NCBI GenBank assembly: GCA_027686065.1
Contig: JAQCTH010000030.1
Location: forward strand, 1 to 43,021
Direction of reading: 5' to 3'
Length of the DNA: 43,021 nt
From: Clostridiaceae bacterium AF10-41
GTDB taxonomy: Bacteria; Bacillota; Clostridia; Clostridiales; Clostridiaceae
Part shown: in pieces, positions 17,428 through 36,928 of the stretch
Layout of the letters: every line of letters begins with the position of its first letter
How positions within the stretch are numbered: the first letter of the stretch is position 1
Translations under genes and position numbers: made by a program
The notes under the pieces: model-generated
Told to the model about the DNA's origin: nothing
The model's database searches: none
What the model saw: only the letters and a program-made list of their open reading frames with translations

Positions 17428-18516
17428 ATGGAAAAGATAATGCTTTACATAGTAGGTGGATTTTTTTTAGTAGGAATAGTAGATTACATTATTGGAGGAA
17501 GGTTTAACTTATATAAAGGGATAGAGAGTGGAATTAAAAGTATGGGATCTCTTGCTTTATCAATGATAGGGATATTTTCAATAACACCAATTATTTCAGA
17601 TATTATAATTAAATATATTTTGCCAGTATTTGAAAATAGTTTTGTAAACCCATCAGTAATAATTTCTTCTTTTATTGCAGTTGATATGGGAGGATATAAA
17701 ATTACTGAAGCTATAGCTACAAATCATAATATGATGTACTTTTCTGGAATACTAATAGCATCAATGTTAGGATGTACTATGAGTTTTACAGTACCACTAG
17801 CTCTGGGTATAATTAATAGAAATAATATTGATATATTTTGTAAAGGAATTTTATGTGGAATAATAGCATTACCAATAGGATTGTTTATTGGGGGAGTACT
17901 ATTACAAATTAACTTATACAATATTATAATTAGTATTTTACCAATTATAATAATATCTATAATTATTTCAGTAGTTCTGAATAAAGCACCTAATGCTATG
18001 ATATCATTTTTTAAATATATAGCTAAAATAATAGTTATGATAGGGGTTATAGGGTTGGGCTTGCAAGGTTTTACATCCATAACAGGAATAGAAATAGTAG
18101 AAAATCTACTTCCTTTGGAAGAGATATTAACCATAGTTGGAAAGATAGCTATTTTCTTGGGTGGTGCTAATGTTATGTTAGAGGTAATAGGAAGAGTATT
18201 AAAAAAGGAAATAAGCATGTTAGGAAATGTATTACATATTAATTCAATATCTGTTACATCTCTTATTGGGAGCTTAGCTTCAGCAGTAATAATTTTCACT
18301 AATTTTGATGAACTAGATGATAGAGGAAAATTGATATGTTCAGCTTTCTCTGTTGCTGGTGCATATGTATTTGGTGGACAACTAGGATATGTTTCTATAG
18401 AAGCAAAAGAGATTATTCCAATTTATATATTAGTAAAATTAATATCAGGAATAATAGGAGTAATTATTGCTATTAAACTAAATAATAAAGAGCTGCCAAA
18501 TAGGCAGCTCAATTAA
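17428..18516 (+). CDS. eutH: EutH-family ethanolamine permease, orphan
   Basis: The 362-residue protein is almost wholly hydrophobic, with about ten membrane segments. Family signatures are MGSLALSMIGIFSITPII, the central SSFIAVDMGGYK and FSVAGAYVFGGQLGYVS. EutH carries ethanolamine into the cell when it is protonated and diffusion is poor. No ethanolamine lyase, microcompartment or regulatory eut genes lie nearby, so either the rest of the pathway is elsewhere or this copy has another substrate. It converges with the flavin transferase gene, whose terminator hairpin lies inside the last 30 bases of this gene. Confidence 0.88.
   Translation: MEKIMLYIVGGFFLVGIVDYIIGGRFNLYKGIESGIKSMGSLALSMIGIFSITPIISDIIIKYILPVFENSFVNPSVIISSFIAVDMGGYKITEAIATNHNMMYFSGILIASMLGCTMSFTVPLALGIINRNNIDIFCKGILCGIIALPIGLFIGGVLLQINLYNIIISILPIIIISIIISVVLNKAPNAMISFFKYIAKIIVMIGVIGLGLQGFTSITGIEIVENLLPLEEILTIVGKIAIFLGGANVMLEVIGRVLKKEISMLGNVLHINSISVTSLIGSLASAVIIFTNFDELDDRGKLICSAFSVAGAYVFGGQLGYVSIEAKEIIPIYILVKLISGIIGVIIAIKLNNKELPNRQLN
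18479..18510 (-). terminator. Terminator for the minus-strand apbE/fmnB gene, inside the end of eutH
   Basis: GAGCTGCC (18490-18497) and GGCAGCTC (18503-18510) form a perfect 8-base stem with a 5-base loop. Read on the minus strand it is followed by TTTATTATT. On the plus strand no T run follows. It lies 45 bases beyond the apbE stop and overlaps eutH codons. Confidence 0.65.
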
Positions 18517-18554: not shown

Positions 18555-19598
18555 TTAATTAGCTAAAGTGAAATCAGTATTTGTTAGTTTAAAAATATCT
18601 CTTATTCCATCGGTTATATAAACTTTATTATCTTTTGTTACAAAGATAGCGTCTATACCCTCTAGATTATGAACAAATTCAAGGCCTTTTTCAACACCCA
18701 TGGAGAAGACTGATGTAGAAAAGCCATCACCATCTGTAGATGTATCACTTATTATAGTTAATCCAGCAACTTCATTATCATAAGGATAACCTGTTTTAGG
18801 ATTTAGGATATGATGATATTTAATACCATCTTTTTCAATATATCTTTCATATATCCCAGAAGTTACAATGGACTTATTTTTTACAGTAATAGTTCCAACT
18901 ATAGCTCCACGGTCAGAAAATGGATTTTGTATTCCTATTTTCCAATTATCGCCATTAACCTTTTCTCCATGAGCAAATATATTTCCACCTAAATCAATTA
19001 TAGCACTTTTTACTCCTTCATTAGTAAGAATGTCAGATATAACATCAGCTGTAAATCCTTTTGCAACTCCTCCAAGGTCTAGCATCATATCTTTTCTCTT
19101 TAAAAATACTGTTTTATCATCATCGTTAAGATCAACATCACTAAAGTCTATTAAAGGTAATTTTGAATTAATTTCATCTTGAGTAGGAACTTTAGCTTCT
19201 GGTAATCCGATACTCCAAAGCTTAACTAAAGGACCTATGGTAATATCAAAAAATCCATTAGATATTTCAGAATATTCTATTCCTTGTTTTATAACTTTAT
19301 ATGTATCATCATCTACTTTTACTGGTTGAACCCCAGCAGATTCATTAATCTTATCCACCAACGTACCATTTTCGTTTATACTTAAATTATCTTCTAATTC
19401 TTTTACCTTATCAAATACTTTATCTAATATTTTCTCGTCACTGCTATCATAAAGAGATACGCTTATTACCGTTCCCATCATTAATTCAGTTTTAGAAATA
19501 GGTTCACTTACTTTGTTATCTTTTGAACAACCAGTCAAAATACTAAGAAAAAAAATTAACAAAAGGGAAGAAGTAAGAATTTTAAAATATTTTTTCAT
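18555..19598 (-). CDS. fmnB: ApbE/FmnB-type FAD:protein FMN transferase, lipoprotein
   Basis: The start is an ATG behind AGGAGG. The 347-residue product has a signal peptide and lipobox ending LTGCS, so it acts outside the membrane. ApbE landmarks are MMGTVISVSLYD, LDLGGVAKGFTAD, AIIDLGGNIFAHG, HHILNPKTGYP and DGFSTSVFSMG. The enzyme splits FAD and attaches FMN to Thr or Ser in flavinylation motifs of extracytoplasmic proteins. Its obvious substrate is the FMN-binding lipoprotein encoded just upstream on the same strand (19703-20131). In Listeria the equivalent, FmnB, loads PplA for extracellular electron transfer. The symbol is given by analogy, and the family assignment is firm. Confidence 0.93.
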   Translation of the reverse strand: MKKYFKILTSSLLLIFFLSILTGCSKDNKVSEPISKTELMMGTVISVSLYDSSDEKILDKVFDKVKELEDNLSINENGTLVDKINESAGVQPVKVDDDTYKVIKQGIEYSEISNGFFDITIGPLVKLWSIGLPEAKVPTQDEINSKLPLIDFSDVDLNDDDKTVFLKRKDMMLDLGGVAKGFTADVISDILTNEGVKSAIIDLGGNIFAHGEKVNGDNWKIGIQNPFSDRGAIVGTITVKNKSIVTSGIYERYIEKDGIKYHHILNPKTGYPYDNEVAGLTIISDTSTDGDGFSTSVFSMGVEKGLEFVHNLEGIDAIFVTKDNKVYITDGIRDIFKLTNTDFTLAN

Positions 19599-19654
19599 AT
19601 AATAATCCTCCTAAATAATATGTCAATATTTATTATAGGTAAAAAAGTTATAAA

Positions 19655-19695
19655 TAAAAAGGACTTTAGGCTAAAAAACCTAAAATCCTTTTGTA
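19655..19695 (-). terminator. Terminator or attenuator after the FMN-binding lipoprotein
   Basis: On the minus strand AAAGGATTTTAGG (19691-19679) pairs with CCTAAAGTCCTTT (19670-19658), with one G-U pair, followed by T-rich sequence. It lies between pplA-like and fmnB-like genes, so fmnB may be transcribed partly by read-through or from its own promoter. Confidence 0.75.
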
Positions 19696-19702
19696 GGTGA
19701 TG

Positions 19703-20131
19703 TTATTTAGCACCTTCTAAAGCTTTTTCAGCTAAAGCTTTGAATGAATCAACTGAGTGAGTAGCACCAGTTATTACATCAACTTTAGAAGCATCTTGCT
19801 TTTCAACTAAAGCAGCTTCTAATTTAGGATAAACTTCGATTGGATTAGTACCACTCTTAGCTTTCATGTTAGTGTTATAGTCAGCATCGTCTAACTTACT
19901 GCCTTTTTCACCTTTTTCATCATATTTAACTGTAGCTATTTTTCCATCTTTAACTTCGATTTCTATAGATGCAACATAGCCTCTTTCATCTTTTTCAGAT
20001 TCAGCTTTGTATGTACCAGCTTTTAATCCAGTTTCCTTAGCAGAACCAGAATCTTTACTTCCACATCCAACAAATACTGTAGTAGCTATTGCAGCAACAG
20101 CTACTAAACTTAAAAATCTTTTTGATTTCAT
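19703..20131 (-). CDS. PplA-like FMN-binding lipoprotein with one flavinylation site
   Basis: The start is the ATG at 20131 behind AAGGGGGA. An earlier in-frame ATG at 20152 overlaps that site. The 142-residue protein has a signal peptide and lipobox with Cys23 (FVGCGS), then one FMN-binding domain (about 35-142). The motif D118-x-x-T-G-A-T-H-S126 fits the ApbE flavinylation consensus, with Ser126 the likely FMN attachment residue. In Listeria PplA, a related lipoprotein with two such domains, passes electrons to flavins or iron outside the cell. This one has a single site. It is followed by the flavin transferase and is divergent from ndh2. Confidence 0.9.
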   Translation of the reverse strand: MKSKRFLSLVAVAAIATTVFVGCGSKDSGSAKETGLKAGTYKAESEKDERGYVASIEIEVKDGKIATVKYDEKGEKGSKLDDADYNTNMKAKSGTNPIEVYPKLEAALVEKQDASKVDVITGATHSVDSFKALAEKALEGAK

Positions 20132-20182
20132 AACAAAATCCCCCTTAAACATATTTAAATATTAAATTAAGTACTTTAAACT

Positions 20183-20213
20183 ACTAAATTATTATACACA
20201 ATAATAATTTAGT
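20183..20213. promoter_or_regulatory. Dyad overlapping a -10 element upstream of the FMN-binding lipoprotein
   Basis: ACTAAATTATTA (20183-20194) and its exact complement TAATAATTTAGT (20202-20213) flank 7 bases. On the minus strand a perfect TATAAT (20196-20191) lies inside it, 60 bases upstream of the ATG at 20131. It has the geometry of an operator over a promoter. The rest of the 318-base divergent gap up to ndh2 is AT-rich with no other clear structure apart from a TATAAT at 20427-20432 near the ndh2 ribosome binding site. Confidence 0.45.
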
Positions 20214-20449
20214 TTGATATTCGATTTTCTTATGGTATATAAGTAAAAATTATCGTGTTAAAAAATAGACAATACAGTAAAAACATGATATTATAAGGCA
20301 TGAAGAAGAGTTTTCAGATTATTAACAGAGAAAAATTTGTTAAAAAAGCCACAAAAAAATAATGCGATGTATATAGACATATATTAAAATAGTGTATAGA
20401 ATTAAATATGCTATTTTAGAATTATTTATAATGAAGGGAAGGGTGTAAC

Positions 20450-22339
20450 ATGTCAAAAAATAAGATACTTGTTCTTGGTGCTGGATACGGTGGTGTTCAT
20501 GCTGCTAAGAAATTAGCAAAGAAATATAAAAAAAATAACGATGTGGAAATTACATTAATAGATAAAAATCCATTCCATACTTTAATGACCGAATTACATG
20601 AAGTTGCTGGGGGGAGAGTTCATCCAGAGTCTGTACAAGTTGAACTAGCTAAAATTTTTGGGAAATCAAAAGTTAATTTAGTTACAGATTTCATAGAAAA
20701 TGTGGATACAGATAAAAAAGTAGTAAAAACTAAATGTGGAGAATATGCATATGACTACTTAGTAATTGGAACTGGTAGTGAACCAGCATTTTTTGGAGTA
20801 CCAGGAGTAAAAGAAAATGGATTTACTTTATGGTCATTTGAAGATGCTCTAAAAATAAGAAAGCATATACAAGATATGTTTGCTAAAGCAAGTTTTGAAA
20901 GAGATGCAGCTAAAAGAAAAGAAATGCTTACTTTTATAGTAGCTGGATCAGGTTTTACTGGTATAGAAATGGCAGGAGAACTTTTAGAGTGGAAAACTAA
21001 ATTATCAAAAGTATATAATGTTGATGAAAGTGAAGTTACTTTAAAAGTTGTCGAAGCTATGGGAACTATCTTAAATATGTTAGATAGAAAGCAAGCTGAT
21101 AAAGCAGAAAGATATATGGCTAAGCATGGAGTTGAGATATTAAAGAATTCTCCTATTACAGAAGTAGCCGATGATAAAATAGTACTTAAGAGTGGAAAAG
21201 AAATAAAGACAAAAACATTAATATGGACTTGTGGAATACAAGCAAACCAAGATGCTAAAGAATATGGATTAGAAACAGCTAGAGCAGGAAGATTACAAAC
21301 TAATGAATATATGCAAGCTGTAGGAAAGAAAGATGTATTTGTTGTTGGAGATATGGCTTATTTTGAAGAAGAAGCTGGTAAGGGTACTCCACAAATAGTT
21401 GAAGCTGCAGAACAAACAGCTAATACAGCAGTTAAAAATATAGTTGCTTCAATAGAAAATAAGGAAATGGAAAAATTCCAAGGAAAGTACCATGGATTTA
21501 TGGTTTCAATTGGTGGAAGATATTGCGTTGCTAACTTAATGGGAATGAAATTATCAGGATTCTTTGCAATGATAATGAAACATTTTGTTAATATGTACTA
21601 CTTATGGGGAGTAAATAATATTAACGCTGTATATAATTATTTACAACATGAATTCTTTACAATGGAAGATAGAAGATCTGTAATGAGAGGTCATGTATCA
21701 TCTAAAGCAAATAGATTATGGTTAGTACCTTTAAGATTATATATCGGATGCTTATGGTTAATCGAAGGAATAAAGAAGCTATTAGGTGAAGGTACATGGG
21801 ATGCTATGTGGAAAGCTGACAGCATAAGCGATTTCTTTAAGAAAATAACTATTGGTGCTGATAGCTGGACTAAAGCAGGTAACGTTAAAATGCCATTTAC
21901 TTGGTTACAAGATGCAACATCAGGTGCATCAGCAGCAACAGGAGCTTCAAATGCAGAAGCAGCAACAGAATGGGCTACTCCAATTATTAAAGAGATTCCA
22001 GGTTGGTATGCATCAATAATGCAAATAATGATGCCAAACCCAGAAGTAGCTGTATGGTTCCAAAGAATTGTTGTATTAATGGAAATAGGAATGGGATTAT
22101 GTTTAATAGCAGGATTATTTACATTTATATTTAGTGCTGTTTCAGCAGGTATGGTAGTAAACTTTATTTTATGTGCTATGGCTGGTTGGGATATACTTTG
22201 GTATTTCTTTGGCTCAATTGCATTAATGGGTGGTGCAGGTAGAGTATTTGGATTAGATTATTATATAATGCCATGGATTACTAGGCTTGTGGATAATTTC
22301 TGGCATGGAAAGAAGCAACCAACTTACAAAAATGTATAG
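20450..22339 (+). CDS. ndh2: Membrane-fused type II NADH dehydrogenase (Ndh2 of the extracellular electron transfer locus)
   Basis: The ATG follows GAAGGGAAGGGTG. The 629-residue protein has an NDH-2 domain (1 to about 415) with FAD motif VLGAGYGGVHAA, NAD-binding FIVAGSGFTGIEMAGEL and VFVVGDMAYFEE. A C-terminal part of about 200 residues follows with several membrane segments (LWLVPLRLYIGCLWL; VVLMEIGMGLCLIAGLF; DILWYFFGSIALMGG), DoxX-like. Ordinary NDH-2 stops near 400 residues. The same long fusion is the Listeria Ndh2 used for extracellular electron transfer. It would oxidise NADH and reduce a membrane quinone. The eetA, eetB and dmkB homologues follow on the same strand. Confidence 0.92.
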   Translation: MSKNKILVLGAGYGGVHAAKKLAKKYKKNNDVEITLIDKNPFHTLMTELHEVAGGRVHPESVQVELAKIFGKSKVNLVTDFIENVDTDKKVVKTKCGEYAYDYLVIGTGSEPAFFGVPGVKENGFTLWSFEDALKIRKHIQDMFAKASFERDAAKRKEMLTFIVAGSGFTGIEMAGELLEWKTKLSKVYNVDESEVTLKVVEAMGTILNMLDRKQADKAERYMAKHGVEILKNSPITEVADDKIVLKSGKEIKTKTLIWTCGIQANQDAKEYGLETARAGRLQTNEYMQAVGKKDVFVVGDMAYFEEEAGKGTPQIVEAAEQTANTAVKNIVASIENKEMEKFQGKYHGFMVSIGGRYCVANLMGMKLSGFFAMIMKHFVNMYYLWGVNNINAVYNYLQHEFFTMEDRRSVMRGHVSSKANRLWLVPLRLYIGCLWLIEGIKKLLGEGTWDAMWKADSISDFFKKITIGADSWTKAGNVKMPFTWLQDATSGASAATGASNAEAATEWATPIIKEIPGWYASIMQIMMPNPEVAVWFQRIVVLMEIGMGLCLIAGLFTFIFSAVSAGMVVNFILCAMAGWDILWYFFGSIALMGGAGRVFGLDYYIMPWITRLVDNFWHGKKQPTYKNV

Positions 22340-22380
22340 AAATTAAAGCAGGATATAATTTTCATATTGCATAATAATTA

Positions 22381-22410
22381 TATAAGGTAGGGTTTTTGCT
22401 CTACCTTATA
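22381..22410 (+). other. Hairpin between ndh2 and eetA
   Basis: TATAAGGTAG (22381-22390) pairs with CTACCTTATA (22401-22410) around a T-rich loop. No T run follows, so it may be a processing or partial-termination site, not a full terminator. Confidence 0.5.
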
Positions 22411-22471
22411 TACATATGTAGTGTTTAAATTGTGAATTCATCCAATTATTTATAATGGAGATGATAATTTT

Positions 22472-22852
22472 ATGTTTAAAAAACTAGATTTTGTTATAAT
22501 AGCAGTGTTAATGTTATTATCCTTTTTACCAGAGATTATTTTAGGTGCATCATTAGGAAAAGGATTTAACAATACATATGCAGAAATAACAGTTTCAGGA
22601 AAACTATATAAAACAATACCTTTATCAGAAAATAAGGGTGAAGAAACTATAGAAATAAAAACTAAAGAAGGAACAAATATTATAAAGGTAAAGGATAATA
22701 AAATAGGTATAATAGAAGCAGACTGTCCAGATAAAGTATGTATGAATCCAGCTTATATAGAGAAACCTGGGCAAAGTTTAGTATGTCTTCCTCATAAAGT
22801 TATGATACAAATAAAAGGAACGAGTGAAGATGATATTATACTATCTTATTAA
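22472..22852 (+). CDS. eetA: EetA-like membrane protein with NusG domain II
   Basis: The ATG follows GGAGATG. The 126-residue protein has an N-terminal membrane segment (about 8-28) and an extracytoplasmic NusG domain II-like beta domain. The Cys residues lie in DCPDKVCM and CLPHKV, typical of this stand-alone family (CPDKxC…CLPH). Despite the name it has nothing to do with transcription factor NusG itself. In Listeria, EetA and EetB are membrane proteins required for extracellular electron transfer, of unknown biochemical role. It is 9 bases upstream of eetB, so the pair is co-translated. Confidence 0.87.
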   Translation: MFKKLDFVIIAVLMLLSFLPEIILGASLGKGFNNTYAEITVSGKLYKTIPLSENKGEETIEIKTKEGTNIIKVKDNKIGIIEADCPDKVCMNPAYIEKPGQSLVCLPHKVMIQIKGTSEDDIILSY

Positions 22853-22861
22853 GGAGGAGCT

Positions 22862-23374
22862 ATGAAAAAAACTAATAAAATAGTATATATAGGATTATTA
22901 GTGGCTCAAGCCTTAGTTTTACATATTATTGAGCGAATGATTCCTGTCCCATTTATAACACCGGGTGCTAAATTAGGATTAGCGAATTTAATTACTGTTA
23001 TTGCTTTATATACGTTAGACAGCAAGAAGGATGCTTTTTTAGTATTATTCTTAAGACTTACATTATCAACAATGTTCGGTGGTAACTTATCATCTTTTAT
23101 GTATAGCGCAACAGGTGGAATTTTAAGTTTTGGTGCAATGACTATTGTAAAAGATTTATTTAAAGATAAAGTTAGTATCATAGGTGTAAGCTCAGCAGGG
23201 GCGATATTTCATAATGTTGGGCAATTATTAATAGCTTCTTTAATAGTCAAGAATATAGGGGTTATGCTATATTTACCTATATTATCAAGTGTAGGAATTA
23301 TTACTGGGATTTTTATTGGTATAACTGCAAACTATGTAGTAGCGCATTTAAAGAAGTTACCAATGTTTAGATAA
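22862..23374 (+). CDS. eetB: EetB-like Gx transporter family membrane protein
   Basis: The ATG follows AGGAGG. The 170-residue protein has about five membrane segments and the family motif ERMIPVPFITPGAKLGLANLITVIALY. It is often annotated heptaprenyl diphosphate synthase component I, a name from gene neighbourhood and not from shown activity. The fold resembles the S components of ECF transporters. The order NusG-II protein, Gx protein, polyprenyl synthase matches Listeria eetA-eetB-dmkB. Confidence 0.88.
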   Translation: MKKTNKIVYIGLLVAQALVLHIIERMIPVPFITPGAKLGLANLITVIALYTLDSKKDAFLVLFLRLTLSTMFGGNLSSFMYSATGGILSFGAMTIVKDLFKDKVSIIGVSSAGAIFHNVGQLLIASLIVKNIGVMLYLPILSSVGIITGIFIGITANYVVAHLKKLPMFR

Positions 23375-23501
23375 TATAAAAAGATAAATATACTATACTT
23401 GTAGCATATTTATTATTTAAACTATTAATTGAAACATATATATTAACAAGGTGAAAATACTAAATTTATGATTTAGATTATCACTAAGAAGGTGGATTAT
23501 A

Positions 23502-24467
23502 ATGGACAAAATTTGGAATAAGTATCCTGATATAAAGCAAGAACTTGTTGATGTATTAAATCTTATGAAAAATAATGTTAAATGCAAAGACAAGAAAATT
23601 GAAAATTCGATAATAGAACTAATAGAATCCGGTGGGAAGTTATTGAGACCAGCTTTTGTTTTAATAGGATCAAAGTTTGGAGAGTATGATAAAGAAAAGT
23701 CTATTCCAACAGCTGCGGTAATTGAAATGTTACATATGGCTACATTAGTACATGATGATGTAATAGATGATTCAAAACTTAGAAGAGGTAAAGAAACTAT
23801 TCAATCAAAGTATGGAAAGGATTATGCTGTTTACATAGGTGATTATCTTTTTTGTGTATGTTTTAAAATATTAGCAACGAATGCCTCATTGCAAGCCATA
23901 AAAGTTGATTCAAGAGCAATGTCTAAAATATGTATGGGCGAAGTAAATCAATTAAATTCTAGATTTTCAATGAATTTCTCTGTTAAAGATTATTTAAGTA
24001 GAATATCAGGTAAAACTGCTGAATTATTCTCAATTTCATTGTACTTGGGTGCAGCAGAATGTAATGCAAGCACAAAGGTTAGTAGAGAACTTAGAAATAT
24101 AGGACACAATTTAGGCATGGCTTTTCAAATAATAGATGATATATTAGATTACGAAGGAAATGATGAAAGTATTAAAAAGTCTGCGGCTAATGATTTAAAA
24201 CAAGGTATATATACGCTGCCATTAATTTATGCTTACAAAAAGGATAAAAGTGCATTTAATGATATTCTAGAGAAGGATTTTTATACAGAAGAAGAAGTAA
24301 GCAAGATAATAGATTTGGTTAAGAAAAATAATGGAATAGAAAATGCTAAGGAATTAGCAGAAAAATATATGAAGAAATGTTTTAAAGGAATAGATAGGCT
24401 TCCAGAAAATGAATATAAGTATATTTTAAGAGAAATAGCGCAATGGTTATTATTGAGAACATATTAA
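23502..24467 (+). CDS. dmkB: Polyprenyl diphosphate synthase (DmkB-like, quinone side chain)
   Basis: The ATG follows AGAAGGTGG. The 321-residue trans-prenyltransferase has both aspartate-rich motifs: HDDVIDDSKLRRG (first) and IIDDILDYEG (second), plus GGKLLRPA near the N terminus. It would make the long prenyl tail of demethylmenaquinone. Chain length cannot be set from sequence alone. Context with ndh2-eetA-eetB supports the DmkB role. The naphthoate prenyltransferase DmkA, the next step, is not encoded in the window. Confidence 0.88.
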   Translation: MDKIWNKYPDIKQELVDVLNLMKNNVKCKDKKIENSIIELIESGGKLLRPAFVLIGSKFGEYDKEKSIPTAAVIEMLHMATLVHDDVIDDSKLRRGKETIQSKYGKDYAVYIGDYLFCVCFKILATNASLQAIKVDSRAMSKICMGEVNQLNSRFSMNFSVKDYLSRISGKTAELFSISLYLGAAECNASTKVSRELRNIGHNLGMAFQIIDDILDYEGNDESIKKSAANDLKQGIYTLPLIYAYKKDKSAFNDILEKDFYTEEEVSKIIDLVKKNNGIENAKELAEKYMKKCFKGIDRLPENEYKYILREIAQWLLLRTY

Positions 24468-24494
24468 AAGGATACTTAGCTTAAGTATCCTTTT
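24466..24494. terminator. Compact bidirectional terminator overlapping both stop codons
   Basis: AAAAGGATACTTA (24466-24478) pairs perfectly with TAAGTATCCTTTT (24482-24494) with a 3-base loop. It contains part of the dmkB stop codon and the whole stop codon of the convergent LysR gene. Confidence 0.85.
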
Positions 24495-25363
24495 AACATA
24501 TTTTTTAAGGATTTTATAAAATCAGAATTAGTTTTATAGAAAGCTTCAGAATAATTTATATAAATTGGAATTGAAATAGAGAAGTCTTCTATTTTAATTT
24601 TTTTTATATTAGTAGTAGAACAATAGTTGTCATACATACTCATTGGTATAAATGTAACAGCTTTAGTCGACAAAACTCCATTTAGTGCAGAAAAATAAGA
24701 ATTAGTTCGATAAAGAATATTTGAGCTATCTAAATCTTTTTCATCACAATTTAATTCTGAACATAAAAAATGCTTTAAGCAATTTTTATCTGAAGCTAAA
24801 ATTAAGGGCAATTCAAAAAGTTGCTCTTTTTTTATACTATTGATATGAAAGTTTTTATCTGCAACCAAAACTATTTCATCAGTTCCTAGTTGCTTTGTAA
24901 TAATACTATCATTATGCTCTGGTTTTCTATAGCATATATAAATATCACAAATATTATTTAATAAATTTGAATTAGAACAGCAATCTATAGTATTAAGATT
25001 TATAGTATATGAGTTATATACCTTTTTTAGCTTAGAAACTAAAGATGGTAAAATAGTTAAGCTTATAGATTCTGCAGCTTCAATTGATATAAATGTCTTT
25101 TTATGAATTGAATTAGATAATTCTTCTTGCATTTTATTATAAGCATTAAGAATAGATTCACAATATTTAAATAAAATTTCTCCTTCTGGAGTTAGGGTAA
25201 CACCTTTATTACTTCTATTTAATAATTTTACATTTAATTTATCTTCTAATTTAAGCATTTGTTGACTTAGTGCAGATTGTGATATATGAGTATTCTTAGC
25301 CACTGTTGAAATACTTTTCGACTTAGCAACCTTAAAAAAATAATTTAAACTATCTATATGCAT
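24476..25363 (-). CDS. LysR-family transcriptional regulator
   Basis: The ATG follows AGGAG. The 295-residue protein has the standard N-terminal winged helix-turn-helix (1-60: SLNYFFKVAKSKSISTVAKNTHISQSALSQQMLKLEDKL) and a C-terminal periplasmic-binding-like effector domain (about 90-290). LysR proteins usually control a divergent neighbour. The divergent gene here is the anchored solute-binding protein at 25567. It also sits against the end of the electron transfer locus. Either could be a target. The effector is unknown. Confidence 0.9.
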   Translation of the reverse strand: MHIDSLNYFFKVAKSKSISTVAKNTHISQSALSQQMLKLEDKLNVKLLNRSNKGVTLTPEGEILFKYCESILNAYNKMQEELSNSIHKKTFISIEAAESISLTILPSLVSKLKKVYNSYTINLNTIDCCSNSNLLNNICDIYICYRKPEHNDSIITKQLGTDEIVLVADKNFHINSIKKEQLFELPLILASDKNCLKHFLCSELNCDEKDLDSSNILYRTNSYFSALNGVLSTKAVTFIPMSMYDNYCSTTNIKKIKIEDFSISIPIYINYSEAFYKTNSDFIKSLKNMLKGYLS

Positions 25364-25566: not shown

Positions 25567-26679
25567 ATGAAAATAAGAAAGAAATTAATAATATATTTAT
25601 TAATAGCTATATTTATTATAATAACTATTAATATGTTTTTTGCTAAACCAAATAGTGGAATGTTAAAGGGAAATATAGTTATATGGTCAGAAGAGAAGTA
25701 CTATTTATATTTCAATTCTATTGCAAAGGAGTTTGAAGAAAACAACAAAAAGGTTAAAGTGCAAGTTGTTAAAGTAAATGAGGAAAATTATTTAGAAAAG
25801 ATTTTGAATGCAAATTCTAAAGAATTACCTAATATAGTTTATTTAGATTTTATAAAATTAAACCAAATTAAGGATAAGCTGAATTTTAAGGAAGAAAATA
25901 AAGAAATAATTGAAACCTATAGTAAGAATTTTAATGAAAACAGGCTTCAAGAAGTTAGAATAAATAAAGATTATAATGCAGTTCCATTTACATCTAATCC
26001 TATAGGCTTATTTTTGAGAAGTGATGTTTTAAGTAATTATGGACATAAAGTAGAGGATATAAATACCTGGAAAGAATTAATAAGTATAGGGAGAGATATA
26101 TATAACAAAAGTAATGGAGAAATAAATATCTTTTCAAGTAAGGATAAAGATAATATAAATCTTTTAATAACTGCACAATTAGTTGATTTAGAAGGTAAAG
26201 AGTATTCTGAAGCAGAAATTAAAGATACAATAAATGAGGTATATAATAATAACTTTACAAATGATAATAATTATATTTGTAGAATAGATTCTATAGATTT
26301 TTATAAAGACATAAATATGAATGAAATAGATGGAGCTTGGGAGTGTAAGAATCCTCCGAGTTTTAATATTGGTGAAAATAGATTTTATGATTTAGGTGGA
26401 GAAAACTTGGTGGCTTTAAAAGTTGATGATAATAAAGAAGCTATCAAAAGCTTTATTGCTTATTCAGCAACTCATAAAGAGTTATTATCTAAAGAGTTAT
26501 TAAATTACAATTTTGTACCTAGTTCATTATATTCTTTAAGAATAAAATATGATGGTAAAAGTACCAAAACATCAGAGGGTAGTAGCCCCTTCTTAATATT
26601 AAGTAATATAGTTGAAAGGGCTCCTAAAATAAAGAATTATAATAAATTTAATTATATAATATACGATTTATATAATTAG
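25567..26679 (+). CDS. Membrane-anchored extracellular solute-binding protein (family 1), orphan
   Basis: I prefer the ATG at 25567, behind GAGGATG (25553-25559), to the ATG at 25546, which has no site. The 370-residue product has an N-terminal membrane segment (about 5-25) but no lipobox Cys, so it looks anchored by an uncleaved signal. The rest is like sugar- or polyamine-type ABC substrate-binding proteins (GNIVIWSEEKYYLYFNSIAKEFEE; YNAVPFTSNPIGLFLRSDVL; INTWKELISIGRDI). No permease or ATPase genes lie nearby. It ends by overlapping the convergent glycosyltransferase by 4 bases with no terminator hairpin between. Confidence 0.78.
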   Translation: MKIRKKLIIYLLIAIFIIITINMFFAKPNSGMLKGNIVIWSEEKYYLYFNSIAKEFEENNKKVKVQVVKVNEENYLEKILNANSKELPNIVYLDFIKLNQIKDKLNFKEENKEIIETYSKNFNENRLQEVRINKDYNAVPFTSNPIGLFLRSDVLSNYGHKVEDINTWKELISIGRDIYNKSNGEINIFSSKDKDNINLLITAQLVDLEGKEYSEAEIKDTINEVYNNNFTNDNNYICRIDSIDFYKDINMNEIDGAWECKNPPSFNIGENRFYDLGGENLVALKVDDNKEAIKSFIAYSATHKELLSKELLNYNFVPSSLYSLRIKYDGKSTKTSEGSSPFLILSNIVERAPKIKNYNKFNYIIYDLYN

Positions 26680-27797
26680 AGTTGATATATTTTCTCATAA
26701 GCAGACAGGGTTTTTATTGCTGTTTCTCTCCAAGAAAATTTAAGACTTCTTTCATAGCCTTTTTTTGATAAAGTTTCTTTTAAACTATTATTATTCAATA
26801 AGTTTACTAAGGATTCTTCTAGTTCTTCCCTCATAGAAGGATCTATTAATATACAAGCATCTCCAGTGACTTCAGGAATAGAAGTGATATTTGATGTTAT
26901 AACTGGAGTCATGCAACTCATAGCCTCTAAAGGGGGAAGCCCAAAACCTTCATAGAAAGAAGGATATACAAAAGCTTCAGCTCCGTTATATAAGACAGGA
27001 AGAAGAGAGTCTTCTATAAATCCAGTAAAAATTATATTATTCTTATTAGGTAAATTTTCTACCATTTGAGCAAGTTTCTTACCTTCATCTTTAAGGGATC
27101 CAGCTAAAAGTAATGTATGAGGCTCTTTCAGGTCTTTAAAAATTTTATCAAAAGCCAAAATAAGTTCTTTAGCGTTTTTACGTACACTAAATCCACCTAT
27201 GTAGAGTATATAGGGAGTAGTTATATTAAACCTTTCTTTAATATAACCTTTGCAATAGTTTTTATCTAAAGGTTTAAAATTTGAATTAGCAGCTAAAGGT
27301 GTAACAAAAACTTTTTCTTCAGGTATATGATTAAAAAATTTTAAAATATCCCTCTTAGAATATTCAGAAACGGTAAGTATCCCTTTAGCGTTATCTATTA
27401 TAGAAGGCATATTTTTTAAAAATCTTTCAAGATATCCTCTCCCAGTGGTATCTGGTAAAATATATGGAATTAAATCGTGTATAGTTACTATACAGTTATT
27501 TTTATAGTTATCACAAAGACCCATTCCGTTTTGTGGAATATGATGGATATCAATACTATTATTATTTATAAAATTAGGAAAATAATAATTCTCATAAAAT
27601 CCACCATGCTTTCTAGAGGTGAAAATTATCTTGCTATTGTGTTTTTTAAACCGTTCATAATCAGTTCCTGTCCAAAATAATGAATATTCATTTTGCTTAT
27701 CTATATTAAGAAGTTCAATAACAAGGTTTTCAGTATAAGTACCAATACCAGTACCATTATATAAGTTTATACCTCTTGCATCTATAGATATTTTCAT
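26676..27797 (-). CDS. GT4-family glycosyltransferase, spore coat (CotSA-like)
   Basis: The ATG follows AGGAGG. The 373-residue GT-B protein has an N-terminal acceptor domain (MKISIDARGINLYNGTGIGTYT) and a C-terminal nucleotide-sugar domain. The retaining-enzyme motif is PSFYEGFGLPPLEAM (E-x7-E). YIGGFSVRKN marks the start of the donor domain. In Bacillus, cotSA encodes such an enzyme beside the kinase-like cotS. Here it is divergent from a cotS-family gene, so a role in decorating the spore surface is a good inference. The donor sugar and acceptor are unknown. A paralogue lies at 30828-31946. Confidence 0.88.
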   Translation of the reverse strand: MKISIDARGINLYNGTGIGTYTENLVIELLNIDKQNEYSLFWTGTDYERFKKHNSKIIFTSRKHGGFYENYYFPNFINNNSIDIHHIPQNGMGLCDNYKNNCIVTIHDLIPYILPDTTGRGYLERFLKNMPSIIDNAKGILTVSEYSKRDILKFFNHIPEEKVFVTPLAANSNFKPLDKNYCKGYIKERFNITTPYILYIGGFSVRKNAKELILAFDKIFKDLKEPHTLLLAGSLKDEGKKLAQMVENLPNKNNIIFTGFIEDSLLPVLYNGAEAFVYPSFYEGFGLPPLEAMSCMTPVITSNITSIPEVTGDACILIDPSMREELEESLVNLLNNNSLKETLSKKGYERSLKFSWRETAIKTLSAYEKIYQL

Positions 27798-27906
27798 ATT
27801 AATCCTCCTAAACTTATCCTATATATTATAAATATTAGGATTTTTTATTTATATAACAAAATATTATTAATAATTTAATTCTGTGATAATAAACACAATA
27901 AAATAT

Positions 27907-27932
27907 ACATTTTCATATAATGACATAGAATA
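27907..27932 (+). promoter_or_regulatory. Possible sigma-K promoter of the first cotS gene
   Basis: AC (27907-27908), 15 bases, then CATAGAATA (27924-27932), fitting the sigma-K pattern AC-N16-CATANNNTA. It lies 18 bases before the ATG. The leader would be very short, and the motif is weakly specific in AT-rich DNA. Confidence 0.3.
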
Positions 27933-27950
27933 AGTCTTAAGGAGAATTCT

Positions 27951-28943
27951 ATGGATATTTCATATATAAAGAAAGAAATTGAATCTAAGTATTCCTTAAA
28001 TATATTAAGTATAGAAAAGGTTAAAAATAGCTATAAGATTAGAACTGATGATGAGGATTATGGTATTAAAGTTATTAAATATCAATTTCCTCATTTTTAT
28101 TTTATATTTTCAGCCATTAATCATCTGCAAAAACAGGGATTTAATAAGATACCAACAATTATAGAGACTAAAGATAATTGTGGGTATATAAAGCTTGGAA
28201 ATTGCTATGCATATTTAAATAAATGGATAGATTGTAGAAATTGTAATTATAAAAGCTTATATGAACTGGAGTTAGCAGCAACTAAATTAGGCGAACTTCA
28301 TAAATGTAGCGAGGGTTTTACACTTAGTAGAAATATGAAACCAAGAATAGCTTGGTATTCTTGGATAAAGGTTTTTGAAACAAGATGTGAAGAAATATTA
28401 GATTTTAAAAAAAGAATTTACCAAAAAGCATATAAATCTAAATTTGATGAAATATATCTAGAGGTTATGGAAGATGAACTACAAAGAGGAAGAAAATCAA
28501 TAGAGGAATTAAAATTAAATAAATATATAGAAATTATGGATAGAGAAGTTATGAAAAGAGGGTTTTGTCACCATGATTATGCTAATCACAATGTATTAAT
28601 AGATAAAAGCGGAGAGTTAAATATAATAGATTTTGATTATTGCATATTAGATTCTCATATACATGATTTATCATCACTACTAATTAGAAGTATGAAAGAT
28701 GGAAATTGGAGCAATGCCAAAGCTACCTTAGTACTAGATAGTTATTCTAAAGCTCATTCAATATATGATGATGAACTAGAACTTATAAAAGGGTTTATTA
28801 GGTTTCCACAGGGATTTTGGCAAATTGGACTTCAATACTATTGGGAGCAGCAGCCTTGGGGAGAAGAATTTTTAGTTAATAAGCTCAATAAATATCTAAG
28901 GGATAGGAATAATAGAGAAAAGTTTGTTGATAGCTTTTTTTAA
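27951..28943 (+). CDS. cotS: CotS-family spore coat protein (kinase-like fold), copy 1
   Basis: The ATG follows AAGGAG. The 330-residue protein has the aminoglycoside-phosphotransferase/choline-kinase-like fold of CotS. The catalytic loop is CHHDYANHN and the metal loop is IIDFDY, both with the residues needed for phosphotransfer. CotS proteins sit in the inner spore coat of Bacillus. Whether they phosphorylate anything is not established. It starts a three-gene run (cotS, unknown, cotS) and faces away from the glycosyltransferase at 26676-27797. Confidence 0.9.
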   Translation: MDISYIKKEIESKYSLNILSIEKVKNSYKIRTDDEDYGIKVIKYQFPHFYFIFSAINHLQKQGFNKIPTIIETKDNCGYIKLGNCYAYLNKWIDCRNCNYKSLYELELAATKLGELHKCSEGFTLSRNMKPRIAWYSWIKVFETRCEEILDFKKRIYQKAYKSKFDEIYLEVMEDELQRGRKSIEELKLNKYIEIMDREVMKRGFCHHDYANHNVLIDKSGELNIIDFDYCILDSHIHDLSSLLIRSMKDGNWSNAKATLVLDSYSKAHSIYDDELELIKGFIRFPQGFWQIGLQYYWEQQPWGEEFLVNKLNKYLRDRNNREKFVDSFF

Positions 28944-28956
28944 TAGAGGTGATAAT

Positions 28957-29709
28957 ATGGGAAAGTTTGAATTAAAATCATATTTAGAAGAAAGAGAGAT
29001 TTATATACTAAATGAAAAAGTAAGCAAAACAATAGATAAGAATTGGGAAAGTATATTTACTCAAATTGAAAATATAGTTCTATTTCAAAGTAAAGTTAGT
29101 TCTTATAAAGAAAACTTACTACCTAGAATTGGAGGATCTATTGGGAGAGAGATCAATAACTATAATTCTCAAATAATCTTACTAGGGAGGTATCTTAAAG
29201 AAATAGAAAATAAAAGCAACTTAAGTTTAATTGATTTTTATTTAATAAAGAATGGTGAATATCTATTAAATAAAGGTAAAAAAGCTTTAAATAATTTATA
29301 TTCAAGTAATTATAGAAGTTTAATTGAGAGAAGCATGAAAAACTATGAGATTTGTTTAGGTAGAGTTGATGAAAATAATTTAATTGTATCTAGAGATAAT
29401 AAAATTTTTATAGGAACAATAAAATATCTAACATATAACATTAAGGAACATGATATATATTCATATATAAAGAAAATAAAAAGAAAAGATACAAATATAG
29501 ATATAGAAGAGATAATAAATTTTTATGTTGCTAAATCAAATTTGGAAGAGGATAGTAAGGAATATTTAAAGTCACTAAGTGCGTATCCAAATGAAGAATT
29601 TAAGGTTATGGAGAGATATATATTAGGAAAATTAAATTTAAAAGAAGAGGAAATTATAGAAAATCTATATAAGGCAAGAAAAATGGATAGTGGATGTTTA
29701 ATAATTTAG
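28957..29709 (+). CDS. Unknown helical protein between two cotS genes
   Basis: The start is the ATG at 28957 behind AGAGGTGA, not the in-frame TTG-region start at 28924 inside cotS. The 250-residue protein is charged and mostly helical (ELKSYLEEREIYILNEKVSKTIDKNW; LERYILGKL-like stretches), with no signal peptide, membrane segment or catalytic motif that I recognise. It is tightly packed between two cotS genes (13 and 15 bases apart), so it is surely part of the same transcript and probably a spore coat or coat-assembly protein. That function is inferred only from position. Confidence 0.8.
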   Translation: MGKFELKSYLEEREIYILNEKVSKTIDKNWESIFTQIENIVLFQSKVSSYKENLLPRIGGSIGREINNYNSQIILLGRYLKEIENKSNLSLIDFYLIKNGEYLLNKGKKALNNLYSSNYRSLIERSMKNYEICLGRVDENNLIVSRDNKIFIGTIKYLTYNIKEHDIYSYIKKIKRKDTNIDIEEIINFYVAKSNLEEDSKEYLKSLSAYPNEEFKVMERYILGKLNLKEEEIIENLYKARKMDSGCLII

Positions 29710-29724
29710 TGGGGGAGTTCAAAG

Positions 29725-30771
29725 ATGAATAAATTCAGATACATTGATAGAGATATATTGTGCAAGTATGACTTAAGTGAAGAGTTTTTTACAAAGTTGT
29801 CTCTAGAAATTGAAGATATAATACCATTGCGAAAAGTTTTTGTTTTATTAACAAATGAAGGGAAGAAAATATTAAAGCTTACAGATTCAAGTGAAGAAAG
29901 AATATCATTTATAAATGAAGCTTTAAATTATATATGCAAAGAATATAATGATGTTCTTAGTTATTATGTAAATAAAGATGGTAAAGTAGTTCATCGTTTT
30001 AGGGGAAATACCTATGTATTGCTAGATATGATAGAAGGAAGAGAAGTAACATTTACTAATCCTATAGAAATTGAGATATGTGCTAAAAGTATAGCTAATA
30101 TGCATAAAGCATCAAAGGGTATATTTAATAAGCTTAATGGAGATATAGTAAAAGGAAACCTAGGTGAATACTTACCGTATCAATTTAATAAGGCTAAAGA
30201 AGATTTAGATAATATTAAAGAATATGTAAAAAGATTCAGGCATAAAGATGAATTTGACAAAATATTCTTAGAGAATGTGGATAATAATATATATCAAATA
30301 CAAAAGTCTATAGAACTTTTAGCTATGTGTGAATATAATTCAATGCTTGAAGATTTCGATAAAAGGGTTTTATGTCATAATGATTTGGCACATCATAATT
30401 TTATTATTGATGGAGATAAAGTGAAAATAATAGATTTTGATTACTGTAAAATAGATACTAGAGCTGTAGATGTGGCTAACTATGCTATAAGAGTAATAAA
30501 GAATAGCTATTATGATATTAGTAAATTTAAGTTAGTATTAGATTCTTATAATTCAATAGAAAAATTAAGTAAACAAGAAATAAAATTTATATATTCAATA
30601 ATAAGTTTTCCAAGAGATTTTGTTACAATAACGAGAGATTATTATTATAAACAAAAGAAATGGGATTACGAAGTATTTCTAAATAGGTTAAATGATAAAA
30701 TAAGCAATGAGAATTACAGAAAAGATCTTATAGAGAATTTTATAGTAGAAATGAATGAATATTTCTACTAA
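29725..30771 (+). CDS. CotS-family spore coat protein (kinase-like fold), copy 2
   Basis: The ATG follows GTGGGGGAG. The 348-residue protein belongs to the same family as copies 1 and 3. Its catalytic loop is CHNDLAHHN and metal loop IIDFDY, both intact. The N-terminal lobe (FVLLTNEGKKILKL) is divergent from copy 1, so this is an old duplication. It is the last gene of the cotS-unknown-cotS run and is followed by a terminator shared with the convergent glycosyltransferase. Confidence 0.88.
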   Translation: MNKFRYIDRDILCKYDLSEEFFTKLSLEIEDIIPLRKVFVLLTNEGKKILKLTDSSEERISFINEALNYICKEYNDVLSYYVNKDGKVVHRFRGNTYVLLDMIEGREVTFTNPIEIEICAKSIANMHKASKGIFNKLNGDIVKGNLGEYLPYQFNKAKEDLDNIKEYVKRFRHKDEFDKIFLENVDNNIYQIQKSIELLAMCEYNSMLEDFDKRVLCHNDLAHHNFIIDGDKVKIIDFDYCKIDTRAVDVANYAIRVIKNSYYDISKFKLVLDSYNSIEKLSKQEIKFIYSIISFPRDFVTITRDYYYKQKKWDYEVFLNRLNDKISNENYRKDLIENFIVEMNEYFY

Positions 30772-30774
30772 ATA

Positions 30775-30824
30775 AATAAAAGGGCATCTATTTATTTAAT
30801 AATGATGTCCTTTTATTTTTTTTT
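30775..30824. terminator. Bidirectional terminator between cotS copy 2 and the second glycosyltransferase
   Basis: AATAAAAGGGCATC (30775-30788) pairs with GATGTCCTTTTATT (30804-30817) with one G-U pair. A run of T residues follows on the plus strand and A/T-rich sequence on the other side. Confidence 0.85.
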
Positions 30825-30827
30825 ATA

Positions 30828-31946
30828 TTAATTTTGTATAATTTTCTCATAAGCCGTTAAAGTTGATTTAGCAGTTATATTCCATGAATAATTAGAACTG
30901 TTTATTATTCCTTGATTAATCATATTTAACCTAAGAGAATTGTCATTTAAAACTCTATCTATAGCACAGGTTAATTCATCTATACTATAAGGATTAATTA
31001 ATAAAGCAGAATCATAACAGATTTCAGGGAGAGATGTAACATTAGAAGTTATTACAGGAGTACCACATGCCATTGCCTCTAATGGGGGTAAACCAAATCC
31101 TTCATAAAATGATGGATACGCTAATAATTCACATGCATTATAAAAAATAGGTAATTTTTCAAGAGGAATAAAATCTGTGAAAATAACATCATTTTCAATA
31201 TTAAGATCTACAGTACGTTTTTTATAAATATCATATGAAATACCTTTTTTTCCTGTTATAACTAGCTTAAGATTTTTCTTTGCATTTTTAGGAAGACGAG
31301 AAAAAGACTCTATTAAGCCTACTATATTTTTTCTAGGGCTAAAGCCACCTACATATAATATAAAGTCCTCTTTTATACTATATTCGTCTTCAATAATTTT
31401 TTTGCATTGACTCTTATTCAAAGGTCTATATATATCCTCAGCAGCAAGATGAGTAACAAAAATTTTATCCTTAGGAAAATTAAATTCTTTTGATATATCT
31501 TGCTTTGAAAATTCAGAAACTGTTAAAATACCATCACAACTATTTATTATTTTAGGAAGTTCGTTGTTAAATATATATAAATAACGATCACTAACGGTTT
31601 CTGGCATTCTCAATGGGATTATATCATGCAAAGTAATGGTTTTATGACAATTTATACTGGTGGAAAGACCGACGCCATTCTGAGGGACATGATAGATATC
31701 TATATTAGTATCATCTAAAATATTAGGAATTCTAACTTCATCCCAAAAACTAGAATTCGAAGAGGCCTTAACTGATTCAACATTAAAATTGCCACTTAAA
31801 TCTAGAGCTGAGTTTTCAGGTAGAAAAACTAAGTAGTCATTAAGTTTATCAACTTTGTTTATACTATTTATGAGTTGATAAGTATATGTGCCAATTCCAG
31901 TTCCCCTATACCATTTTGCAGCTCTGCCATCTATGCCTATCTTCAT
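30828..31946 (-). CDS. GT4-family glycosyltransferase, spore coat (CotSA-like), paralogue
   Basis: The ATG follows AAAGGA. The 372-residue protein has the same architecture as the 26676-27797 enzyme: MKIGIDGRAAKWYRGTGIGTYT at the N terminus, YVGGFSPRKN at the domain junction and PSFYEGFGLPPLEAM (E-x7-E). The two are clear paralogues, and they share the invariant GTGIGTYT and GVGL/GMGL blocks. It is divergent from cotS copy 3, which repeats the glycosyltransferase/CotS arrangement seen upstream. It likely adds sugars to a spore surface component. Confidence 0.88.
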   Translation of the reverse strand: MKIGIDGRAAKWYRGTGIGTYTYQLINSINKVDKLNDYLVFLPENSALDLSGNFNVESVKASSNSSFWDEVRIPNILDDTNIDIYHVPQNGVGLSTSINCHKTITLHDIIPLRMPETVSDRYLYIFNNELPKIINSCDGILTVSEFSKQDISKEFNFPKDKIFVTHLAAEDIYRPLNKSQCKKIIEDEYSIKEDFILYVGGFSPRKNIVGLIESFSRLPKNAKKNLKLVITGKKGISYDIYKKRTVDLNIENDVIFTDFIPLEKLPIFYNACELLAYPSFYEGFGLPPLEAMACGTPVITSNVTSLPEICYDSALLINPYSIDELTCAIDRVLNDNSLRLNMINQGIINSSNYSWNITAKSTLTAYEKIIQN

Positions 31947-32051
31947 GATTTAATCCTTTCATATTGTTTTTAATTTATTATATTAAAGATAGGAATAAAA
32001 TGTTAATAAAAGAATACATATAGTCATATAAATATAAAGGAGGTGAGAGTT

Positions 32052-33053
32052 ATGATGAGAGAATTTGAAATAGAAAGACAATTTAACGTTAAAATCGAAG
32101 TTTTAAAAGCAAATAAAGGAGTGTATTATTTAAAAACTAATAAGGGAGAAAGATGTTTAAAGAAGATAAATTATGGCCCTCAAAAGCTATTATTTGTTTA
32201 TGGAGCCAAGGAACATCTGATAAACAATGGTTTTAAAGGTGTAGATAAGTATTTTTTAAACATAGATGGGGAGCCATACGCCCTAGTTAATGAAGATCTT
32301 TATACATTATCAGAATGGATAGAGGGAAGAGAATGTGATTTTCATAATATAGAAGAGGTGAAATTAGCAGCAAGAACTCTTGCTAGATTGCATGAAGCAT
32401 CAAAAGGATATGACCCTCCAGAAAATTCTAAATTAAAAAGTGATTTAGGCAGATGGACTCACCTTATGAATAAAAGAATAAAATCCTTTGATAAAATGAG
32501 AGATATGGTAAGAAAAAAAAATAATAAAAATAATTTTGATTTACTATATTTAAAATCAATGGAGTTTTATAAAGAAATAGGTAAGAAAGCTTTAAAAACT
32601 TTAGAAGAATCAGAGTATATGAAATTATGTGAGATAGCAGAAAATGAAAAAAGTTTTTGCCATCATGATTTTACCTATCACAATATAATTTTAGATGAAA
32701 ACAATAATTGCAATGTAATTGATTTTGATTATTGTAAAAGAGAAGTAAGAACATTTGATATATCTAATTTTATGATAAAGGTTTTAAAGAGAGTAGACTG
32801 GGACATAAATTTTGCTAAAGCAATAATAGAGTCATACAATGAGGTTTCACCATTTTTAGATAGTGAATATAAAGTTCTATATGCATACCTACAATTTCCA
32901 CAGAGGTATTGGAGACTTGCTAATAGATATTATTATAATGAAGTTAACTGGGGACAAAATACTTTTGGAAACAAAATTGAATCAATAATAAATGAGCAAG
33001 AATCTATGTTAGAGTTTTTAGGAGAATTTAAAAATCTATATAATTTAGAATGA
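32052..33053 (+). CDS. CotS-family spore coat protein (kinase-like fold), copy 3
   Basis: The start is the ATG at 32052 (or 32055) behind GGAGG at 32039-32043. The in-frame GTG at 32043 overlaps that site. The 333-residue protein has catalytic loop CHHDFTYHN and metal loop VIDFDY, intact as in the other two copies. It also has LSEWIEGRECDF, matching LNKWIDCRNCNY of copy 1. It is closed by a strong terminator and followed by yabG. Confidence 0.9.
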   Translation: MMREFEIERQFNVKIEVLKANKGVYYLKTNKGERCLKKINYGPQKLLFVYGAKEHLINNGFKGVDKYFLNIDGEPYALVNEDLYTLSEWIEGRECDFHNIEEVKLAARTLARLHEASKGYDPPENSKLKSDLGRWTHLMNKRIKSFDKMRDMVRKKNNKNNFDLLYLKSMEFYKEIGKKALKTLEESEYMKLCEIAENEKSFCHHDFTYHNIILDENNNCNVIDFDYCKREVRTFDISNFMIKVLKRVDWDINFAKAIIESYNEVSPFLDSEYKVLYAYLQFPQRYWRLANRYYYNEVNWGQNTFGNKIESIINEQESMLEFLGEFKNLYNLE

Positions 33054-33079
33054 AAAAAGTGCTATGAGCACTTTTTTTA
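33053..33079 (+). terminator. Intrinsic terminator of cotS copy 3
   Basis: AAAAAAGTGCT (33053-33063 region) pairs with AGCACTTTTTT (33067-33077) around a three-base loop, ending in a T run. The remaining gap to yabG (33080-33281) has a good GGAGG at 33185-33189 with no convincing ORF behind it. Confidence 0.85.
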
Positions 33080-33225
33080 TTCTTTAGATCGGTTATAAAA
33101 AGTTTATCATATGGATAACTATTTATAATTTCTTCCTTAAGCTGGCAAAATATCATATATAAGTTTACGATGACTTGGAGTGAAAGGAGGGGATAAGAAA
33201 ATTTACATATGAACTTTTTTTATGT

Positions 33226-33253
33226 ACAAATGCTTAAAATTCGACATAAGATA
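33226..33253 (+). promoter_or_regulatory. Probable sigma-K promoter of yabG
   Basis: AC (33226-33227), 17 bases, then CATAAGATA (33245-33253), close to the sigma-K consensus. It lies 28 bases before the yabG ATG. In Bacillus subtilis yabG is a sigma-K gene, which fits. Confidence 0.45.
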
Positions 33254-33281
33254 ATATAAAATAATTAACTAAGAGGGAAAA

Positions 33282-36833: not shown

Positions 36834-36928
36834 GGGTATTTTATTAGAGGCGGTTTCATTTGGGGTTTTTGTGAATAATATTAAGGAAGGTTGGATAAAA
36901 TAAGAAATGCATGATAAGAGGTGAGAAA

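Follow-up and report, generated by a model that had tools for sequence, protein, structure and literature searches.

Why would clostridia that seem unable to build a quinone carry a set of genes for exporting electrons through one? The question is raised by a locus at positions 18555-24467 of the 43,021-nucleotide stretch analyzed here (contig JAQCTH010000030.1 of assembly GCA_027686065.1, Clostridiaceae bacterium AF10-41; the whole stretch is called the window). Six complete open reading frames fill this span, which an earlier sequence-only reading had assigned to flavin-based extracellular electron transfer (FLEET). Sequence comparison supports the view that this is a genuine FLEET locus of the Listeria type and a new member of that group, and it probably works as one. 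We consider it likely that electrons from NADH are exported via Ndh2, a prenylated naphthoquinone and the FMN of a PplA-like lipoprotein to acceptors outside the cell, the quinone head group being most likely scavenged.

An Ndh2 protein alignment against a collection of named genomes led to Listeria goaensis as comparator, whose locus consists of two rows on opposite strands, fmnA-dmkA-fmnB-pplA and ndh2-eetA-eetB-dmkB. The window has six of these eight genes in the same order and orientation, and all six proteins align with their L. goaensis counterparts at 37-55% identity. On the minus strand, fmnB (apbE; 18555-19598) encodes a lipoprotein FAD:protein FMN transferase of 347 residues (Pfam ApbE, E 2.8e-88; 50% identity to L. 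goaensis FmnB) with a lipobox, LTGC, recognized by eye; its best match among solved structures is 7esa ("FAD:protein FMN transferase," E 1.3e-108), which we take to be Listeria FmnB. The adjacent pplA-like gene (19703-20152, minus strand) encodes a lipoprotein of 149 residues with a single FMN-binding domain (Pfam FMN_bind, E 2.8e-8), 37% and 40% identical to the two domains of L. goaensis PplA. It scores 107.7 bits on the NCBIfam PplA model, below the cut-off of 325, covering about half of that model, and has the predicted flavinylation motif DVITGATHS, in which G129, A130, T131 and S133 are invariant in eight aligned proteins. On the plus strand, ndh2 (20450-22339) encodes a type II NADH:quinone oxidoreductase of 629 residues with a C-terminal extension (Pfam Pyr_redox_2, E 3.5e-45; 54% identity to L. 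goaensis Ndh2 over residues 1-628). Downstream of it lie eetA (22472-22852), for a NusG_II protein of 126 residues (E 2.2e-34; 39%); eetB (22862-23374), for a 170-residue protein with the Hpre_diP_synt_I domain (PF07456, E 8e-51; 55%); and dmkB (23502-24467), for a polyprenyl diphosphate synthase of 321 residues (Pfam polyprenyl_synt, E 2.9e-68; 48%). EetB is predicted to be a subunit of an ECF-type FAD exporter, a function that we assign after PMC9973259.

The sequence-only reading had matched the six genes to the Listeria locus by domain and mostly by order and had proposed comparing each protein with the Listeria set; the alignments with L. goaensis bear the match out. It had also likened the C-terminal fusion of Ndh2 to that of Listeria, and this part is indeed homologous, at 45% identity (97 of 216 residues in 411-629) compared with 59% for residues 1-410. 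The split into two divergent units is present as described, but it is no departure from L. goaensis, whose locus has it too, and no peculiarity of the window. In a structure model of Ndh2 (51-row alignment, mean pLDDT 84.5, pTM 0.70), the first 400 residues or so adopt the NDH-2 fold (4nwz_A, TM 0.95 by target length, 34% identity) and are followed by helices. Similarity of the C-terminal part to Pfam DoxX/DoxD is weak and below the cut-offs, and none of the 50 solved structures listed matches this part in its own right. The window has neither dmkA nor fmnA in the locus, where L. goaensis has both, and carries eutH beside fmnB instead. We do not treat these two genes as defining a FLEET locus, since Enterococcus loci show dmkA with no fmnA match in view.

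How would such a locus operate? On the inner side of the membrane, Ndh2 would oxidize NADH and reduce a prenylated naphthoquinone, of the demethylmenaquinone type. EetB, together with a housekeeping ECF complex, would export FAD, from which FmnB would attach FMN to the PplA-like lipoprotein, and the flavinylated lipoprotein would then take electrons from the quinol and pass them to free flavins, ferric iron or electrodes. DmkB would make the prenyl tail, and DmkA, encoded elsewhere in the nearest genome, would join the tail to a scavenged head group, probably 1,4-dihydroxy-2-naphthoate (DHNA).

The prenyl part of this scheme is consistent with the distribution of prenyltransferases in a genus sample of 68 genomes. 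The genome nearest to the window (G001, 97% complete) has an Ndh2 98% identical to that of the window. Full-length Ndh2 is encoded in 22 of the 68 genomes, 11 of which have the gene order and divergence of the window, as do G016 and G045, where our BLAST rule recognized no PplA. UbiA-family prenyltransferases occur in 36 genomes, namely in all 22 with Ndh2 and in 14 of the 46 without it. When typed by BLAST and a profile from seven seeds, three kinds were confined to genomes with Ndh2: DmkA (16/22 versus 0/46), MqnP (6 versus 0) and the MenA-like UbiA309 (9 versus 0). At least one of the three is present in 22/22 genomes with Ndh2 and in 0/46 others (Fisher test, 2.5e-18, uncorrected for kinship, the 22 genomes not being independent). 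Eight hits of genomes without Ndh2 and two of genomes with it (G005 and G012) stayed untyped, and one subthreshold hit in G064 was left out. The types separate in a tree of 52 selected proteins, which carries long-branch warnings. A fourth type, UbiA303 (at least 69% identity; for example, L039 9299-10210), is also MenA-like and occurs in nine genomes, all with Ndh2. G001 encodes UbiA303 as well as a DmkA on a contig other than that of the locus; this DmkA passes the NCBIfam model for DHNA polyprenyltransferase (NF009926; 337.7 against a cut-off of 316) and shares a clade with the DmkA proteins from Listeria, from Enterococcus and from further clostridial loci (support 95/93, with a long-branch warning).

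UbiA309 is paired with a solute-binding-fold protein that has no visible signal peptide in nine genomes with Ndh2 (L044 3088-7823, behind sugar-type ABC genes; L045, L046, L056, L057, L183, L187, L191 and L193). It is the sole UbiA match in G025, G063 and G065.

Where would the head group come from? MenB and MenD exceed their cut-offs in none of the 22 genus genomes with Ndh2. Classical menaquinone synthesis was rejected for these genomes; both enzymes pass only in G029 and G031 (2/68), which lack Ndh2. Of 11 named genomes with Ndh2, four are nonclostridial (L. goaensis, two Enterococcus and Oceanobacillus), and MenB passes in all of these; it does not pass in any of the seven clostridial ones, nor in G001, in contrast to L. 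goaensis. Synthesis via futalosine is not supported by the MqnA/MqnD family: PF02621 exceeds its cut-off in three of the 22 (G016, G030 and G056), each time in a solute-binding lipoprotein beside an ABC permease, and thus no true MqnA or MqnD was found by this search. Because no head-group synthesis was found in the families searched, the head group is most likely scavenged; clostridia with Ndh2 seem unable to build the quinone and probably obtain precursors from their neighbors. The lack of MenB and MenD makes clostridial FLEET resemble that of Lactiplantibacillus plantarum, which has FLEET genes with DmkA and no DHNA pathway and needs exogenous DHNA (PMC8837199, PMC10746273), a likeness drawn from its published description. 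A difference from L. plantarum is that relatives of the window among the clostridia have mqnPLM or UbiA309 modules in addition.

The mqnPLM module is a candidate salvage route for a quinone precursor. In G006, whose importer binding protein is identical to a C. celatum protein, and in G010 and G040 (C. saudiense-like), the FLEET cluster includes mqnL, mqnP and mqnM and, behind them, an SsuA/NMT1-type ABC importer. The same row is found away from FLEET in the C. gasigenes-like G012 and in G016; the G043 contig stops shortly behind mqnM, with no importer in view. Family models were run on the module proteins of G006, the other genomes being read by BLAST to these or by eye. MqnL of G006 passes TIGR03701 (672.2 against 495.9) and its UbiX-type MqnM passes the general UbiX model TIGR00421, and MqnP scores 304.7 on MqnP_DT, below the cut-off of 430. 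MqnL exceeds its cut-off in six of the 68 genomes, all with Ndh2, and none of these six has a PF02621 match except for the binding lipoprotein in G016. Since MqnL alone is common (above its cut-off in 77/299 genomes of a phylum sample), only its link with FLEET and the missing MqnA/MqnD are informative. Outside the sample, Fonticella tunisiensis (L105) has mqnPLM beside FLEET genes, its mqnL being cut by the end of the stretch examined, and the Clostridiales metagenome-assembled genome GPF-1 (L147) has ndh2-eetA-eetB-dmkB-mqnL-mqnP-mqnM in one row on one strand. In both, an apparent ABC ATPase and permease lie behind mqnM (by eye); PF02621 has no match in F. tunisiensis, and its 26.6-bit match in GPF-1 is a binding lipoprotein.

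We propose tentatively, and with somewhat less than even confidence, that FLEET-bearing clostridia are auxotrophic for the quinone head group and possess modules dedicated to its salvage. In the genomes of C. celatum, of the C. saudiense-like and C. gasigenes-like members and of their relatives, MqnL-MqnP-MqnM and the SsuA/NMT1-type importer would take up, prenylate and decarboxylate 1,4-dihydroxy-6-naphthoate or a similar aromatic acid to demethylmenaquinone, which would make this transporter the first quinone-precursor importer. It counts against salvage that the importer has 523 homologues at an E-value of 1e-30 or better (120 listed), some of them in other named species such as C. baratii and [Clostridium] dakarense, whose gene neighborhoods are not in view, so that the tie to mqnPLM comes from the five genus genomes inspected. 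The transporter could conceivably import riboflavin, against which speaks the position of its gene, behind mqnM even in the two genomes whose mqnPLM is separate from FLEET (G012 and G016).

The mqnL frame of G045 (L275 13513-14571) is short, at 352 residues, and its 469.1 bits fall just below the cut-off. Genomes from other families of this phylum encode a relative of Ndh2 close to MqnL, at a distance of up to about 5 kb (G217:C7, G294:C7, G183:C5, G113:C24, G069:C94 and G346:C17), so this type of Ndh2 also accompanies Mqn-type genes elsewhere.

Several observations weigh against quinone-dependent export with a scavenged head group as the function of the window locus. The locus lacks fmnA, and the only fmnA-like homologue in G001 is EcfT-like (41%). 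A dedicated fmnA elsewhere was rejected for the genus, because nothing resembles it closely (39-44%) except a single EcfT per genome, present in 64 of the 68 regardless of Ndh2. The PplA-like protein has one FMN-binding domain where L. goaensis PplA has two. No prenyltransferase was found in the flanks examined of the C. polynesiense (L104) and Anaeromonas (L127) loci, the rest of these genomes not having been searched. Gene absences were read from G001 and its relatives, not from the window's own assembly, and the head-group search was confined to MenB, MenD and the MqnA/MqnD family. In L. plantarum, mutants in dmkA, eetB/dmkB or eetA keep a somewhat reduced DHNA-dependent extracellular electron transfer (PMC10746273), and part of the FLEET set may therefore be dispensable. 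The activity kept by the dmkA and dmkB mutants, along with the need of L. plantarum for an exogenous shuttle despite forming MK-6 and MK-7 (PMC10746273), lends some weight to a different reading, in which the FLEET set is genuine, Ndh2 directly reduces a soluble shuttle (free DHNA or riboflavin taken from the environment) and the prenylated quinone is not what matters. We regard this as unlikely, because the strict co-occurrence of Ndh2 with the three prenyltransferase types and the presence of dmkB inside the locus argue that the prenylated form matters.

A further point concerns EetB, which exceeds its cut-off in 43 of the 68 genomes and was rejected as a specific FLEET marker. Its occurrence without Ndh2 in 21 of the 46 genomes lacking that enzyme, and the many systems that ApbE-flavinylated proteins serve (PMC8238504), would fit a locus that flavinylates a lipoprotein for a surface reductase or a role in redox stress, with extracellular acceptors being incidental; given the complete Ndh2-PplA-FmnB set in the layout of L. 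goaensis, we think this improbable. Scavenging would be unnecessary if the cells made the head group through a pathway that is still unknown or has diverged strongly. The few families behind the inferred absence leave some room for one, as does a UbiU/TrhP-like U32 protein (about 641 residues) that, together with a class III aminotransferase, adjoins the mqnPLM module in G006, G010, G040 and G012; in GPF-1 some 10 kb separate the two from mqnL (family scans covered the G006 and GPF-1 proteins). This pair might mean further chemistry, which would count against salvage; however, it is not beside mqnL in G016 or G043, and with neither MenB, MenD nor a true MqnA/MqnD in the genus genomes that have Ndh2, such a pathway appears improbable to us. 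Loci with the pair near mqnPLM and the importer are L041, L042, L237, L047 and L147.

Export of NADH electrons through a scavenged, prenylated quinone thus remains our preferred reading. If it is true, spore-forming clostridia that live by fermentation can dispose of electrons from NADH outside the cell, and their ability to do so depends on quinone precursors from neighbors. The founding paper, Light et al. 2018, reportedly lists such genes in many Firmicutes, and we therefore do not claim the presence of FLEET in the genus as new. None of the literature matches listed, judged by titles and abstract openings, deals with a Clostridium locus of the Ndh2/PplA type. The wider interest is that electron export in clostridia apparently depends on scavenged precursors, and that the mqnPLM-linked ABC transporter offers a concrete, deletable candidate importer. 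Papers of 2016 and 2017 describe quinone-precursor importers as still to be annotated or undescribed (PMC4746308, PMC5738691). In the late futalosine pathway, mqnPLM was reported across 254 genomes only together with the Mqn pathway (PMC4746308), whereas here no MqnA/MqnD was found and the three genes accompany an ABC importer, in some genomes within the FLEET cluster itself. A 2026 paper on Clostridium and iron plaque proposes a NosR-ApbE system for iron reduction (PMC13134045), which shares ApbE flavinylation and a proposed quinone oxidation with the window and differs in its membrane protein, the multi-FMN NosR. The main text of that paper does not mention ndh2, pplA or FLEET.

The locus may be controlled by its neighbor. 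A LysR-type gene (24476-25363, minus strand; HTH_1 and LysR_substrate) converges on dmkB, unlike in L. goaensis, and is a candidate regulator. Relatives of it (41-94% identity) converge on dmkB in 13 of the 22 genus genomes with Ndh2, and G025, G063 and G065 have a LysR gene (30-38%) inside the cluster. Between pplA and ndh2, the intergenic sequence shows several conserved blocks, among them the palindrome CTTAT-N5-ATAAG (20229-20243), which occurs nowhere else in the window (0.24 matches expected; a match arose in 23 of 100 shuffles). Read by eye, 12 of the 13 aligned regions retain a perfect inverted repeat here, C. polynesiense through a joint change of both arms, and G021 has lost it. LysR proteins bind T-N11-A, and the palindrome fits as a candidate site for the adjacent regulator. 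A second element, TTGTTAA-N7-ACAA (20337-20354), also the sole match in the window (0.07 expected) and kept in 9 of the 13 regions by eye, is perhaps a site for the NADH-sensing Rex, a weak candidate that resembles what we presume to be the Rex consensus. A candidate ndh2 promoter, TAGACA-N17-TAGAAT (20374-20402, plus strand), lies in a conserved block of the alignment; the consensus scan that gave it had 49 matches in the window against 47.3 in shuffles, no excess. Terminator-like hairpins lie 3' of pplA (19657-19692, minus strand) and after dmkB (24464-24496).

On the other side of the locus, eutH (17428-18516), for an ethanolamine permease, adjoins fmnB, as it does in seven of the 22 genus genomes with Ndh2 (G001, G011, G020, G026, G044, G048 and G064); ethanolamine use has been linked with extracellular electron transfer in Listeria (PMC8547011). 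Elsewhere in the window, genes for YabG, the CotS family and SpoIIR fit a spore-forming host. CotS-family proteins and YabG are encoded in a spore coat cluster (26676-34172), which by eye contains two glycosyltransferase-like genes that resemble each other (starting positions as listed, 26676 and 30828). The window of this presumed spore former further encodes a cyanophycinase and cyanophycin synthetase pair (36911-40373), both above their NCBIfam cut-offs.

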